Below, one piece after another: positions 8,549-15,071 of a stretch of DNA of 64,000 bases. A program made the position numbers and the translations under genes. The first letter of the stretch is position 1. Every line of letters starts with the position of its first letter. Source of the stretch: Actinomycetota bacterium (GTDB lineage Bacteria; Actinomycetota; UBA4738; HRBIN12); contig DASQWI010000002.1 of assembly GCA_035640355.1 (NCBI GenBank), positions 1 through 64,000 of the forward strand, written 5' to 3'. Below the pieces are notes generated by a model, which saw only the letters and a list, made by a program, of their open reading frames with translations, made no database searches and had not been told where the DNA came from.

Positions 8549-10924
8549 CTACGACGAGCGCAGTTCGGCGCCGAAATCGCGCCCCAGCCGCTGGGCGATC
8601 GCGACTACGACTTCGTTGGCTTCCGCGTCGGTGAGGGTCCGATCCGAGGCCCGAAGGTCGACCGAGAAGGCCAGGCTCTTCTTGCCATCGGGCAGTGGCG
8701 GCCCCGCGTGCACGTCGAACAGGACGACCGAGTCGACGAGGTCGCCGCCCGCTTCGTCGAGCGCCGCATGCAATCGACCGGCTGGCGTCGAAGCGTCGAC
8801 GACGAACGCCATGTCGCGGCGGACCGGCGGGAAGCGTGGCACGTCGCTCACCTGAGGCATGGCCGTCGCGCGGTCGGCGATCGCATCGACGTCGAGCTCA
8901 CCAACGGCGACCCGCCCCGTGAGATCGAACACGGCCGCGACCGACGGGTGCAGCTCGCCGAACACGCCGACCGTCTTCGAGCCGACAACGACGTGCGCGG
9001 ACCTTCCCGGATGGAATGGCGCACCCGCTCGCATACCCGCTGTCCACGTGACCCCGACCGCCGCAAGGAGCTCCTCGACGACGCCTTTCGCGTCGAAGAC
9101 GTCGAACTCGCGTCGCGCGGTGTGCCATGACTCGTCGGCGCTTCCGGTCATCACGAACGCGACGCTCGGCCGTTCGTCCACCGCGCCTGAGACGAGGCGG
9201 AAGCGGGGGCTCACCTCGAAGATCGCGACCTGCCGCACCTGGCGGTACGTGTTCCGCCTGGCAGCCCGAAGCAGTCCCGGGAGGAGCTGCGTTCTCAACA
9301 GCCCGTCATCCGCCTGCAAGGGGTTGGTGATCCGAACGGCGTCTCCGTCTCCGAACAGCCGGAGTTCCTTGTCGGAGAGGAAAGGCATCGGGCGTACCTC
9401 GCGAAGCCCGGCGCTGGCCATCGCGCGGCGGATCCGATCGACGAACGCGTATCGCTCGGGAACGCCGCCCGGCTGCCTGATCGCGGGAAGCGTCGAGCCG
9501 ACGCGGTCGTACCCCTGGACGCGCACGACCTCTTCGATGAGATCGACCTCGCGTTCCAGGTCGAAGCGGTACCCGGGGGCCTCGACGCGGATCGTGTCCT
9601 CATCCGCTCGTTCGTGCGTCATCCCCAGCCGATCGAAGACGGCCTCGGCGTCGGACACGGAAACCTCGTATCCGATGATCGCCGATGAGCGGGACGCCCG
9701 CATCGAGACCCATCGCCGTCTCGGCGCGTCGCCCTCGTCGAGTGCTCCGCGGAGCACCGAGGCGTCGCACCACTCGACCATCAGCCGGCACGCACGGTCC
9801 CCTCCCATCACCACGGCCTCGGGATCGACGCCGCGCTCGAACCGCGTCGACGCCTCCGTCGAGAGCGCAAGGCGGCGTCTCGTCCGCTGGATCCCCTCAC
9901 GCTGGAACGAAGCGGCTTCGAGCAGGACGTCGGTCGTCGATGGCGAGATCTCCGCGAGCTCCCCTCCCATCACGCCTCCGACGCCGACCGGCCGCTCCGC
10001 GTCGCAGATCAACAGGTCGTCGTCGGTGAACGTCCGCTCGACACCGTCGAGGGTGATCATGCGTTCGCCCTGCCTTGCGCGACGGACCACGATGCCCGGT
10101 CCTTTCAGCAGTGACAGGTCGAACGGGTGGAGCGGCTGTCCGATCTCGAGCATGGCGTAGTTCGTCGCGTCGACGGCCGCGGAGATCGGCCGCATCCCGG
10201 ACGCGGTGAGTCGCGCCTGCGCGGCGATCGGCGCGGTGACGTGCCGGACGTCGCGCAGGATCCGCGCCCGATACCGCGGGCACCGGTCGAGGTCCTGGAT
10301 GTCGATGGTCGCCACGCCCTCGACGGTTTCGTCGGCCTCGTCGACGCGGGCGTTCGGCGCGACGAGCGGCGTACCCGTCGCCGCCGCGACCTCCCTGGCG
10401 ACCCCGATGACCGAGAGAAGGTCCCCCCGATTCGGCGTGACCTCCACGTCGAGGACCTCACCGGAGAGGCCGAACGTCGCTGCGACGTCCGCTCCCGGCT
10501 CGAGGTCCGCCGGCAGGATCAGGATTCCATCGTGTGAAGGCGAGATGGCAAGCTCGTCCGGCGCGCACAGCATTCCGTTCGACACGACGCCACGGATCTC
10601 TCGCGCCCCCAGCGGCTGAGGCAACGACGGCACCCGCGACCCCGGCGGCGCGAGCGGCACCAGATCGCCCGGCTGCATGTTCCGGACGCCCACGACGACC
10701 TCGAGCTCTCCGGAGCCTGTCTGCACGCGCGCCATGCAGAGCGTGTTGCTGTTGGGGTGATCCCGCACCTCGACGACGCGGGCGACAACCACGCCGGAGA
10801 GCCCACGCCAGGGCCGGTCGATCGATTCGACCTCGGCGCCCTTGCTGGTGAGGAGCTCCGCGAGCTCCTCGGCGTCGAGCTCCGTCGGACACAGATCGCG
10901 CAGCCACGGGACGAAGATCTTCAC
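8549..10924 (-). CDS. pheT: Phenylalanyl-tRNA synthetase beta subunit
   Basis: Beta chain, 791 aa, of the heterotetrameric PheRS. Domains in order: N-terminal start MKIFVPWLRDL; an EMAP-II-like tRNA-binding domain (about 40-150); the B3/4 editing domain that hydrolyses Tyr-tRNA-Phe; B5; a catalytic-like core; and a C-terminal ferredoxin-fold anticodon-binding domain (last about 95 residues). I chose GTG at 10924 because it overlaps the pheS stop in GTGA and matches the family N-terminus. A longer open frame upstream only shadows pheS. The length is normal for the family. Confidence 0.96.
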   Translation of the reverse strand: MKIFVPWLRDLCPTELDAEELAELLTSKGAEVESIDRPWRGLSGVVVARVVEVRDHPNSNTLCMARVQTGSGELEVVVGVRNMQPGDLVPLAPPGSRVPSLPQPLGAREIRGVVSNGMLCAPDELAISPSHDGILILPADLEPGADVAATFGLSGEVLDVEVTPNRGDLLSVIGVAREVAAATGTPLVAPNARVDEADETVEGVATIDIQDLDRCPRYRARILRDVRHVTAPIAAQARLTASGMRPISAAVDATNYAMLEIGQPLHPFDLSLLKGPGIVVRRARQGERMITLDGVERTFTDDDLLICDAERPVGVGGVMGGELAEISPSTTDVLLEAASFQREGIQRTRRRLALSTEASTRFERGVDPEAVVMGGDRACRLMVEWCDASVLRGALDEGDAPRRRWVSMRASRSSAIIGYEVSVSDAEAVFDRLGMTHERADEDTIRVEAPGYRFDLEREVDLIEEVVRVQGYDRVGSTLPAIRQPGGVPERYAFVDRIRRAMASAGLREVRPMPFLSDKELRLFGDGDAVRITNPLQADDGLLRTQLLPGLLRAARRNTYRQVRQVAIFEVSPRFRLVSGAVDERPSVAFVMTGSADESWHTARREFDVFDAKGVVEELLAAVGVTWTAGMRAGAPFHPGRSAHVVVGSKTVGVFGELHPSVAAVFDLTGRVAVGELDVDAIADRATAMPQVSDVPRFPPVRRDMAFVVDASTPAGRLHAALDEAGGDLVDSVVLFDVHAGPPLPDGKKSLAFSVDLRASDRTLTDAEANEVVVAIAQRLGRDFGAELRSS

Positions 10925-11967
10925 GCTGCGCCCTCGAACTGCTGGAGGAACCGGACGTCGCCCTCGGTGAACAGACGCAGGTCGTTCACGCCGTATAGGA
11001 GCATCGCCACGCGCTCGATCCCGATCCCGAACGCGAATCCCGTGTACCGCTCCGAGTCGTAGCCACCGTTCTCCAGGACCTTCGGATGCACCATGCCGGC
11101 GCCGAGGAGCTCGAGCCATCCGTTGCCGCAGACCGAGCACCCCGTACCTCCACACACGAAGCAGGACACCGCGAGATCGCATCCGGGCTCGACGAACGGG
11201 AAGTAGTCGGGCTTCATCCGGACGCGCACGTCCGATCCGAACATCTCCTTCGCAAATGCGTGGAGCGTCCCCTTCAGATCCGCGAAGGTGATGCCTTCGT
11301 CGACGGCAAGCCCCTCCAACTGATGGAACACCGAGCTGTGCGTCGCATCGTGCGCCTCGCGCCGGTACACGCGCCCGGGGGCCACGATGTACACCGGGGG
11401 CTCCTGCGATTGCATCGTTCGGATCTGCACCGCGCTCGTCTCGGTCCGCAGCAGCAGCGCATCGACGTCGACGTACAGCGAATCCTTCAACGTACGGGCG
11501 GGGTGATCGGCGGGGATGTTGAGGGCTTCGAAGTTGTGCCATTCGTCCTCGACCTCGGGCCCCTCCGCGACGCGGTAGCCCATCCGAGTGAAGACCTGGA
11601 CCATTCGCTGCTCGACCAGCGTGAGTGGATGGAGCGATCCGGGGCGGGGTCGTCTGCCGGGAAGCGTCACGTCGACGGCATCGGCGTCGAGGATCGCTGA
11701 GCCGGAAGCCAGCTCGAGCTCGGTTCGACGCCCGTCGTATGCGCTCCGGAGGTCGGCGAACACCTCGTTGACGCGCTTGCCGAGTTCGCCGCGCTCGTCG
11801 CGCGACACCGATCCAATTGACCTCTGAACGTCTGAGAGCCGACTCTTTCGCCCGAGAAACGAGGTCTTCGCCGCTTCGAGCTCGTCGATCGAGCCCGCCG
11901 CGGCGAACGAGCGGAGGCCGCGCTCGAGCTCGGCGTCGGCGATCGAACGTGCCTCGTTCGGGTCCAT
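10921..11967 (-). CDS. pheS: Phenylalanyl-tRNA synthetase alpha subunit
   Basis: Catalytic alpha chain, 348 aa, class II synthetase. An N-terminal coiled coil (about 1-90) binds tRNA. The class II core has HPLT at the start of the domain, motif 2 around RTMQSQEPP and FHQLEGLAVD, and motif 3 near the C-terminus (GFAFGIGIERVAML). It forms an alpha2-beta2 enzyme with PheT, to which it is coupled by a 4-nt overlap. It starts with ATG at 11967, 12 bp after the SpoU/kinase fusion gene, so pheST belongs to the infC ribosomal operon. Confidence 0.96.
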   Translation of the reverse strand: MDPNEARSIADAELERGLRSFAAAGSIDELEAAKTSFLGRKSRLSDVQRSIGSVSRDERGELGKRVNEVFADLRSAYDGRRTELELASGSAILDADAVDVTLPGRRPRPGSLHPLTLVEQRMVQVFTRMGYRVAEGPEVEDEWHNFEALNIPADHPARTLKDSLYVDVDALLLRTETSAVQIRTMQSQEPPVYIVAPGRVYRREAHDATHSSVFHQLEGLAVDEGITFADLKGTLHAFAKEMFGSDVRVRMKPDYFPFVEPGCDLAVSCFVCGGTGCSVCGNGWLELLGAGMVHPKVLENGGYDSERYTGFAFGIGIERVAMLLYGVNDLRLFTEGDVRFLQQFEGAA

Positions 11968-11979
11968 GGTCCGGCGAGT

Positions 11980-13434
11980 CTAGCCGTCGCTTCGGTCCGA
12001 GAACCCCTGTATCGCGACCGGCACGTCGAGGATGAACGACAGACGATCGTCCACCCGGACCTCCGCGGTTCCTCCTTGCGCCTCGGCGATGCCGAGCGCG
12101 ACGAACAACCCGATCTTGCTCCCGGTGCCGGCGCCCGGCGCCCGCGGCCGAAAGAGCCGCTCCGCCTCGTCCTGCCGGAGGTCGGTCCCTCCCCGCGACA
12201 CGGTGAGGACGAGCCGGCCGTCACGCTTGGCGGCCTCGACGAACACGGGACCGTCGTTGGTCCACCACACGACCGACTCGATGAACGCCTCGAGCACCAG
12301 CCGCAGCCGATCGCCGTCGACGAATGCCTCAACCTCGCCGTGCTTCCACTCGATCGGTGGGTGCTCCGGGTCACGCCCGAGCGACTCCGCGACCTGCTGC
12401 ACGAGCCGGCCCAGGTCCGTTCGCTCCGGATACAGCTCGAGCGAACCGGCCGCCAGGCGCGCGGCGTCGACGAGCTGGCGGAGGATCGCGTTCAGCCGGT
12501 CGGTGTCGTAGACGATCCCCGTCAGCATCAATGTGCGGTCCTCTTCGGTCATTTGATCCCATCGCGTCGCGAGCGCGTGACCGAACCCCTTCATCGCGGT
12601 GAGCGGCGAGCGGATGTCGTGCGCGGCGGCCGCGACGATCGTCTCCAGGACGGCGCGACGACCCTCTCGCAGGTGTCTCGCCCACTCGAACAGGCAGATC
12701 GTCGCCGCGGCGGCCAGATTCAGCGACTCGGCGCGTCCGGCGATCGGAACGCGAACGGTCGCGTCCGCGAGCTCGGCGATCTCCATCGGGAGTCCCCACG
12801 CCTCGTTCCCGAACACGAACGCCACTGGATCGGTCAGGTCGAGCTCGTACAGGTCGGTGTCCCCGGACGCGTCCATGGCCAGGACCCGCATGCCGCGATC
12901 GCGCAGAAGTGCGATCGCGGCATCCGTCTCAACGCCTCGAACGATCGGCAGGTGGAACAGCGACCCCGCGGTCGCCCGCACCGTCTTGGGGTTGTACACA
13001 TCGACGGATTCCGACGTGAACACGATGCCCCCTGCGCCGGCTGCGTCGGCGGAGCGCACCACGGTCCCCGCGTTGCCGGGATCTCGGACAGCGTGCAGCA
13101 CGGCGACGCACCGTTCCGGCTCGCCGATCGACGCGAGCTCGAGATCCACGAACGGCGCGATGCCGACGAGCGCCTGGGGTGTCACCGTCGACGTCAGGCG
13201 CTCCACGATCGTCTCACTCACGTGCACGAGCTCGACGCCGGACCGATGAGCGCGTTCGACGAGCGGGTGGTCGGGGTCGGAGTGGTACAGCCTGATGATG
13301 CCGGGTCGGTTCGAGAGCGCCTCGCCGATGGCCTGCGCGCCCTCGACCAGGAAGCACCGTTCGCGTTCGCGGAAGGCCCGCTTCTTCAGGCGGAGCGCGG
13401 CGGCGACCCGCTCGTTTCGGATCGAGGTGATCAC
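11980..13434 (-). CDS. SpoU/TrmH-type rRNA methyltransferase fused to degenerate histidine-kinase module
   Basis: 484-aa protein with two parts. Residues 1-255 form a SPOUT 2'-O-methyltransferase of the TsnR/RlmB type: an N-terminal substrate-binding domain, motif 1 RDPGNAGTVVRSADAAG (117-133), motif 2 FVFGNEAWGL (207-216) and motif 3 around SLNLAAAATICLFEWAR. Residues 262-470 look like HisKA plus HATPase_c: an H-box HDIRSPLTAMKGFG with His272, then a G2-like GTGSKIGL (436-443). The N-box position reads FIESVV, with Ser for the Mg-binding Asn. The G1 box reads SRGG, with Arg for the adenine-binding Asp. ATP binding is therefore doubtful. The start is GTG at 13434 with a GGGGAA site upstream. 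The operon context is rplT-this gene-pheS. From memory, Streptomyces has separate SpoU and sensor-kinase genes at this locus. Confidence 0.85.
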   Translation of the reverse strand: MITSIRNERVAAALRLKKRAFRERERCFLVEGAQAIGEALSNRPGIIRLYHSDPDHPLVERAHRSGVELVHVSETIVERLTSTVTPQALVGIAPFVDLELASIGEPERCVAVLHAVRDPGNAGTVVRSADAAGAGGIVFTSESVDVYNPKTVRATAGSLFHLPIVRGVETDAAIALLRDRGMRVLAMDASGDTDLYELDLTDPVAFVFGNEAWGLPMEIAELADATVRVPIAGRAESLNLAAAATICLFEWARHLREGRRAVLETIVAAAAHDIRSPLTAMKGFGHALATRWDQMTEEDRTLMLTGIVYDTDRLNAILRQLVDAARLAAGSLELYPERTDLGRLVQQVAESLGRDPEHPPIEWKHGEVEAFVDGDRLRLVLEAFIESVVWWTNDGPVFVEAAKRDGRLVLTVSRGGTDLRQDEAERLFRPRAPGAGTGSKIGLFVALGIAEAQGGTAEVRVDDRLSFILDVPVAIQGFSDRSDG

Positions 13435-13531: not shown

Positions 13532-13891
13532 TCAGGCGGCGAGCGCGTCCCTAGCCGTCTGAACGAGCTGCGCAAACGCCGCCGGGTCGTGGACGGCGAG
13601 GTCGGCGAGCGCCTTGCGATCCAGCTCGACACCGGCGCGCTGCAGCCCGTGGATCAGCTGCGAGTACGAGAGCCCGTTCTGGCGCGCGCCCGCACCGATC
13701 CGGGCGATCCATAGCCTGCGGAATTGGCCCTTGCGGTCACGGCGGTCGCGATACGCGTACTGCCCGGAATGCAGCAGCTGCTCCTTGGCCATCCGGTACC
13801 GCCGCGAACGGGAGCCGAAGTAGCCCTTGGCCTTGCGAAGCACCTCGCGGCGCTTCTTCTTGGCGTGGACCGAACGCTTGACGCGTGCCAT
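13532..13891 (-). CDS. rplT: 50S ribosomal protein L20
   Basis: Ribosomal protein L20, 119 aa, an early-binding 23S rRNA assembly protein. The start [18 protein letters not shown] and the segment [30 protein letters not shown] are typical. It lies 7 bp after rpmI, in the canonical infC-rpmI-rplT order. In Firmicutes and Proteobacteria L20 represses this operon post-transcriptionally; whether it does so here is unknown. A gap of about 97 bp separates it from the downstream SpoU fusion gene. Confidence 0.98.
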
Positions 13892-14103: not shown

Positions 14104-14670
14104 TCATTCGACGGGCGCCGGTGCGGCCGCGGGTCTCGCGGCGCTTCGTTGCTCGGCGTGCTTCTTCGTCGGCGCGATCACCATCACCATGTTGCGTCCG
14201 TCCTGCTTCGGTGTTGCCTCCACCGTGGCCATGTCGCCCAGGTCGCCGACCAACCTGTCCAGGATCCGTCGGCCGAGCTCCGTGTGGGCCATCTCTCGCC
14301 CGCGGAACATGATCGTCACCTTGACCCGCGCGCCCGCGTTCAGGAACCGGACGACGTGACCCTTCTTAGTCTCGTAGTCGTGTGGGTCGATCTTCGGCCG
14401 GAACTTGATCTCCTTGACCTCGACCCTGGCCTGCTTCTTGCGCGCCTCCTTGAGGCGGATGTCGCGCTCGTACTTGAACTTGCCGTAATCCATGATCCTC
14501 GCGACGGGCGGGTTCGCCTGCGGCGCGACCTCGACGAGGTCGAGATCGAGCTCCTGGGCCTGCCGCAGCGCCTCCTGCGTGGAGACGATGCCGATCTGGG
14601 CTCCGTCCGGACCCACCAGACGCACCTGCGCCGATCGGATCCGGTCGTTTATCCGTGGATCAGCCGAGAC
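14104..14670 (-). CDS. infC: Translation initiation factor IF-3 (non-canonical start)
   Basis: IF-3 binds the 30S subunit and rejects non-initiator tRNA and non-standard start codons. The protein has the N-domain RINDRIRSAQVRLVGPDG, the MDYGKFKYE linker region and the C-domain IMFRGREM and KQDGRNMVMV. The conserved N-terminus begins before the first ATG/GTG/TTG in frame (GTG at 14625), and an in-frame TGA lies at 14679-14677. The codon aligned with the AUC start of homologues (I-S-T-E-P-R-I-N) is GTC at 14670, giving V-S-A-D-P-R-I-N. It lies 9 nt after a GGGAGG site (14685-14680). An ATA at 14652 is the alternative. Third-position start variants are known for infC (AUU, AUC) and allow IF-3 autoregulation; GUC would be new. 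The exact start is uncertain. Confidence 0.93.
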   Translation of the reverse strand, partial: VSADPRINDRIRSAQVRLVGPDGAQIGIVSTQEALRQAQELDLDLVEVAPQANPPVARIMDYGKFKYERDIRLKEARKKQARVEVKEIKFRPKIDPHDYETKKGHVVRFLNAGARVKVTIMFRGREMAHTELGRRILDRLVGDLGDMATVEATPKQDGRNMVMVIAPTKKHAEQRSAARPAAAPAPVE

Positions 14671-14781: not shown

Positions 14782-14808
14782 GGTTCGGAGCCGCCGCGCG
14801 TACCGAAT

Positions 14809-15012
14809 CTAGACGGGCCGAACGTTGGCGGCCTGCTTGCCCTTGGGGCCGTCGACGACGTCGAACTCGACCGCCTGACCCTCGGTGAGCGAGCGGTATC
14901 CCTCGCCCTGGATCGCGGAGAAGTGAACGAACACGTCGTCCTGACCTTCACGCGAGATGAAGCCGAAGCCCTTCTCGTTGCTGAACCACTTGACGGTGCC
15001 CTGCTCTGCCAA
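14809..15012 (-). CDS. cspA: Cold shock protein, CspA family
   Basis: Single OB-fold RNA chaperone, 67 aa, with the RNP1-type motif KGFGFI and RNP2-type VFVHFSAI. It binds single-stranded RNA or DNA and melts mRNA structure. I chose TTG at 15012 because AGGAGG lies 6 nt upstream and the protein then begins [10 protein letters not shown], as in the family. Further upstream the frame is not Csp-like. It is monocistronic, with its own promoter at 15072-15100 and an untranslated leader of about 50 nt, much shorter than the long cold-responsive leader of E. coli cspA. Confidence 0.95.
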
Positions 15013-15071
15013 CCGATGCCTCCTGTTGCGTGCCTCGCGTCGCGCGCTGCCCGAGCGCGTCGGCGGCGCGG

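Follow-up and report, generated by a model that had tools for sequence, protein, structure and literature searches.

Gene content and domain layout of the locus

The window, i.e., the whole 64,000-nucleotide stretch of an Actinomycetota contig that was analyzed, contained a gene cluster in the order infC-rplT-X-pheS-pheT. Gene X, located between rplT and pheS, was a fusion gene.

10921..11967, minus strand: pheS, with its ATG 12 nt past the fusion stop codon (Pfam)
11980..13434, minus strand: whole fusion gene, predicted SPOUT/SpoU 2'-O-methyltransferase plus OhkA-type DHp and degenerate CA domain, 484 amino acids
13438..13443, minus strand: Shine-Dalgarno-like GGGGAA, 4 nt upstream of the fusion GTG (sequence)
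13532..13891, minus strand: rplT (L20), the neighbor upstream of the fusion gene (Pfam)
14104..14625, minus strand: infC (IF-3), upstream of the fusion gene (Pfam)

The reading frame began with a GTG (13434-13432) and ended with a stop codon at 11982-11980. GC3 was 0.87 and 0.88 for the two halves of the gene, in line with its neighbors. Pfam annotated the window protein with MRM3-like_sub_bind (PF22435; 3e-12, residues 7-91), SpoU_methylase (3e-38, residues 110-249), HisKA (4e-9, residues 264-330), and HATPase_c (1e-4, residues 373-472), the last just under the cut-off. Rfam returned nothing at gathering score over 8-18 kb of the window. A sub-threshold match to the cspA thermoregulator (14806-15044, minus strand; 32.6 bits against a gathering score of 78) lay over a cold-shock protein gene and probably reflects the cold-shock coding sequence.

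AlphaFold2 gave a confident fold for the window protein (mean pLDDT 93.6). Foldseek matched residues ~1-260 to the SPOUT methyltransferases RlmR, AviRb, and YsgA, and the rest of the protein to HK853-type kinase cores and the DivL core (4q20). The best structures were 9h1k (TM 0.88) and YsgA 7qiu (TM 0.89; target-normalized). Together, the open reading frame (13434-11980), Pfam, and AlphaFold2/Foldseek bore out the original prediction of a SPOUT methyltransferase fused in a single frame to HisKA and HATPase_c regions. The two parts were joined by a short linker.

12640..12666, minus strand: linker, residues 257-265 (predicted models, alignment)

As modeled for the window protein, an unbroken helix (residues 240-294) crossed the linker; for a relative (L046) the modeled helix was broken, and linker length differed by single residues among relatives. 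The idea that a stiff helix couples SPOUT to DHp, as the window protein model predicts, was dropped, and mechanical coupling is doubtful because the joining helix is not conserved. Given the break in L046, any coupling between the two parts would not have to be rigid.

Distribution of the fusion

The class of the window corresponded to its order among the genomes sampled and comprised 27 genomes of uncultured soil and groundwater actinobacteria in four families. The fusion was found in 24 of the 27. In G011 a contig end cut the locus, with the kinase C-terminus still adjoining pheS, and the search of G023 (73% complete) gave no match to the fusion. In G021 (L032, 1401-1700) the methylase stopped shortly before the likely pheS start; the kinase module was absent and the response regulator OrrA (see below) was kept. 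Methylase phylogeny placed G021 together with the fused proteins in one clade (97/89), the loss in G021 being nested inside it, so that a single fusion followed by a single loss is enough to explain the pattern.

A frameshift or misassembly had been named at the outset as grounds for refutation. The window comes from a draft genome in 29 contigs, but an artefact of assembly or reading frame has next to no probability: the same fusion recurred with an open frame in 24 of the 27 genomes, each assembled separately, on different contigs and in divergent sequence, which rules it out. Fusion-bearing assemblies included ones of four and seven contigs. The fusion of a SPOUT methylase with an OhkA pseudo-kinase is real and conserved. 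When the literature was searched for a protein combining SpoU with a histidine kinase, the terms matched only in a review of modified ribonucleosides.

SpoU, PAS, HisKA, and HATPase parts also occurred in a single apparent frame in an Acidimicrobiaceae MAG (L101, 4809-6881). We did not count this candidate as an independent second fusion, since a stop codon may be hidden at the ambiguous residue (X) that separates its parts. The canonical kinase residues were present in its kinase part.

Origin from two neighboring genes

Outside the class, the methylase gene was followed by a separate, adjacent kinase gene in the same operon, usually encoding PAS-HisKA-HATPase, and the ATP-site residues of these kinases were intact. 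In family f5 (L170, L172, L175) the kinase, ~236 amino acids long in the shorter cases, appeared without a PAS domain, and its ORF overlapped the methylase ORF. This architecture is a plausible intermediate in which PAS was lost first and in-frame joining came later. The adjacency outside the class and the overlapping ORFs support, at the sequence level, the earlier proposal that two genes found side by side elsewhere have fused.

The Streptomyces gene at this locus is OhkA (SCO1596), as placed by the S. coelicolor gene order. The kinase part of the fusion had the place expected of an OhkA orthologue, between the SpoU methylase and pheS, and OrrA occurred in the same genome. When a second, canonical OhkA copy was looked for elsewhere in the class genomes, none stood out.

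Methylase half

12667..13434, minus strand: residues 1-256, L30-like substrate-binding domain and SPOUT catalytic domain (Pfam, motif columns, RlmR active site in PMC12123411)

SPOUT motif I (N121 and R127), motif II (GNE; G209-N210-E211), and motif III (SLN, with S237 and N239) were present, and motif columns placed all four catalytic residues (N121, R127, S237, N239) intact. These residues correspond to N122, R128, S236, and N238 of RlmR, in which variants N122A, R128A, and N238A were among those hit hardest (PMC12123411); Glu236 of the fusion stands where RlmR has Asp235. The methylase half is thus, by sequence and structure matches, assigned to the MRM3/RlmP/RlmR-type SpoU/TrmH SPOUT 2'-O-methyltransferases. 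Its nearest characterized relatives act on U2552 or G2553 of the 23S A-loop and, by homology only, A-loop nucleotide 2552 or 2553 would be the target of the fusion.

Kinase half

12439..12663, minus strand: HisKA/DHp domain, residues 258-332, H-box AAAAHDIRSPLTAMKGF (Pfam, alignment)
12619..12621, minus strand: His272 codon, invariant in 23/23 fused proteins (alignment)
12010..12417, minus strand: HATPase_c-like CA domain, residues 340-475, without catalytic residues (Pfam, alignment)
12262..12303, minus strand: N-box equivalent, residues 378-391, with Asn replaced by Ser387 and Lys/Arg by invariant Trp390 (alignment)
12193..12195, minus strand: Arg414 codon, replacing the G1 Asp, invariant in 23/23 fused proteins (alignment)
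12106..12123, minus strand: G2 equivalent GSKIGL, residues 438-443; position 440 is Lys/Arg in all fused and Gly in all unfused proteins (alignment)

Kinase parts from 14 class sequences, searched alone against Pfam, gave HisKA in 14/14 and HATPase_c in 12. The ATP site was compared between 23 fused proteins and 16 unfused canonical kinases. Position 387 was S/A/G/T in the 23 fused proteins and N in 16/16 unfused kinases; position 390 was W in all 23 and K/R in the unfused set; position 414 was R in all 23 and D in 16/16; and position 440, the middle Gly of G2 (Lys440 in the window protein), was K/R in the 23 and G in 16/16. The four canonical residues had zero occurrences in the fused set (n = 23). 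His272 was H in both sets alike, and H272, R275, and P277 were invariant (HDxRxP). Set against an active HisKA kinase, the module therefore retained the H-box phospho-acceptor His and lacked the N-box Asn, the G1 Asp, and the G2 GxGxG (S387, R414, and GSKIG).

The numbering of His272, Ser387, and Arg414 in the original prediction was correct, and the loss of Mg-ATP residues that it described extended to the whole class (23/23 fused proteins). Two more losses were added, the N-box Lys/Arg (Trp390) and the middle G2 Gly (Lys440). Alignment to canonical kinases was unambiguous; misaligned motifs were ruled out by flanking anchors on both sides, which aligned to the 16 canonical orthologues. Homologues with intact residues, suggested beforehand as a sign of a wrong alignment, were found only among unfused proteins and therefore confirm the alignment instead of upsetting it. 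Given the known roles of these residues, canonical ATP binding has probably been lost and, because the residues for it are gone, autokinase activity of the fusion is very unlikely.

The H+4 (phosphatase) position was Ser in the fused proteins, with Thr or Leu in two members, and Ser also in unfused OhkA; the usual residue at this position is Thr or Asn. Identity to unfused OhkA was higher for DHp (36-39%) than for the CA domain (23%). In close pairs of fused proteins dN/dS was 0.12-0.24 for CA and 0.01-0.26 for DHp, values far below 1 that rule out a decaying pseudo-domain and indicate a module under selection.

OrrA, the reported OhkA partner

OrrA (SCO3008) is the reported partner of OhkA in Streptomyces coelicolor and acts on wblA (PMC9739842). 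Reviews describe OhkA/OrrA as a control on antibiotic production and development in Streptomyces. The OhkA-OrrA link is reported only for S. coelicolor, and the review passages on the system name no molecular signal for OhkA/OrrA. OrrA was assigned by gene order in a large-genome, Streptomyces-like actinobacterium (G047), where the order was mtrA-mtrB-lpqB-comF-hpf-RR-secA. SCO3009 is HPF (PMC7157823), consistent with SCO3008 being the gene that follows.

An OrrA orthologue was present in 26 of the 27 class genomes, the exception being G025 (61% complete). That of the window genome (G000:C29:6443-7105) had 72% identity. The phospho-Asp and switch residues of OrrA were retained in the class, and receiver identity was 0.73 between the class and others, against 0.74 among the others. 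OrrA adjoined hpf, encoding the ribosome hibernation factor, in the six class loci read. OrrA-type regulators next to hpf and upstream of secA were seen in Streptomyces-like and class genomes (L218; L192, 5941-6666; L187, 5272-6207).

Across 297 Actinomycetota, with kinship ignored and with an OhkA score threshold picked after the scores were seen, OhkA and OrrA co-occurred: both were present in 79 genomes, they were discordant in 7 and 5, and both were absent from 206. Outside the class, again ignoring kinship, the corresponding numbers were 55, 6 and 3, and 206. Families f5, f12, and f47 contained joint presences and joint absences of the pair within the same family. Four genomes of one genus (G122, G141, G180, and G258; family f45, genus g99) had an OhkA-like kinase and no OrrA at the cut-off used, a pattern in which a partner switch or a diverged OrrA is possible.

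Proposed mechanism and alternatives

The fusion could be an rRNA methylase carrying an ATP-independent OrrA-docking module that is coupled to the methylase, a reading with about an even chance of being right. In the fusion, a predicted 23S rRNA 2'-O-methyltransferase is covalently linked to the OhkA histidine kinase normally encoded beside it. The kinase module keeps its fold, phospho-acceptor His, and H-box, and would dock OrrA without ATP, its most likely form being an OrrA~P phosphatase or a phosphate sink. Module activity would be set by the dimer state of the methylase, free or bound to maturing 50S, and ribosome assembly would thereby be reported to OrrA. The sequences establish the fusion and its conservation, the lost residues, selection on the module, and the retention of OrrA, next to hpf in the six class loci; that OrrA docks, that the module acts as a phosphatase or sink, and which way the signal runs are steps that we infer. 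ATP-independent action on OrrA is favored because His272 with its surrounding HDxRxP and OrrA itself have been kept. The Ser at H+4 counts against a phosphatase. The main caution is G021, in which OrrA persists without the module; OrrA is thus not strictly dependent on it and could be supplied by other kinases or by small phospho-donors.

The main rival to a phosphatase or sink is reversed signalling as in DivL, with the dead kinase core sensing OrrA~P and altering how active the tethered methylase is or how it binds the ribosome. In Caulobacter a kinase core has been turned to sensing a phospho-regulator, which sets a precedent (PMC4211667). The DivL core was among the Foldseek matches, the methylase is the sole other effector on the chain, and the OrrA receiver is conserved. 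DivL has lost its His, however, whereas His272 is invariant here, a residue that a module used for docking alone could do without, and reversed signalling is rated unlikely. If true, phosphosignalling would control rRNA methylation.

Like DHp domains, SPOUT enzymes are typically dimeric, and the module might serve only dimerization, stability, or ribosome docking, with no signalling; the loss of the ATP site and the ability of G021 to manage without the module fit such an add-on. It is nonetheless improbable, since the strictness of His272 and the H-box, purifying selection on CA about equal to that on the methylase, and the new invariant Trp390 and Arg414 exceed the needs of a scaffold. A signalling role is favored over a purely structural one because His272 is invariant and OrrA is retained. 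Alternatively, Arg414 and Lys440 of the rebuilt pocket might hold some other anionic ligand, such as an alarmone or an Mg-free nucleotide, and the pocket would thereby gate methylation. Invariant Arg and Lys/Arg in place of acidic and small pocket residues (23/23) would suit this role, but Trp390 may merely fill the pocket and the G1 region is otherwise variable (identity 0.33 among fused proteins), and a ligand-gated methylase is very improbable.

Fusion of the methylase to a kinase whose ATP pocket has been rebuilt uniformly across the class hints at a tie between ribosome maturation and the conserved OhkA/OrrA signalling pathway. It is a serious possibility, if somewhat short of an even one, that an rRNA methylase covalently ties ribosome maturation to two-component signalling, either reporting 50S assembly to hpf-linked OrrA by ATP-independent dephosphorylation or being switched by OrrA~P. 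Such a covalent link, if true, suggests that Streptomyces OhkA would take input from the neighboring rRNA methylase. As a Rosetta-stone clue, the fusion indicates the adjacent rRNA methyltransferase as the partner of OhkA/OrrA, and the conserved position of OrrA next to hpf likewise points to translation. With its phospho-acceptor intact and its ATP site rewritten consistently throughout the class, this natural pseudo-histidine kinase is also useful for studying DHp function without ATP.

Comparison with known systems

The fusion shares with OhkA, the orphan histidine kinase of S. coelicolor (SCO1596), the locus between a SpoU methylase gene and pheS and the same DHp-CA domain, and OrrA is conserved in both groups. 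OhkA-type kinases are separate proteins, usually with PAS and with intact N, G1, and G2 boxes, whereas the kinase of the fusion is PAS-less, joined to the methylase, and without the ATP residues. The layout of L30-like and SPOUT domains is common to the fusion and the A-loop SPOUT 2'-O-methyltransferases RlmR, RlmP, and MRM3; the structures of that group are without a kinase module, while the fusion carries one. In the Caulobacter pseudo-histidine kinase DivL, a core without kinase activity is kept as a regulator-binding module (PMC4211667), to which the fusion is likened by its sequence losses alone. DivL has Tyr for His and possesses PAS, whereas the fusion keeps the His, has its ATP residues replaced, and bears an RNA methylase in the sensor position.
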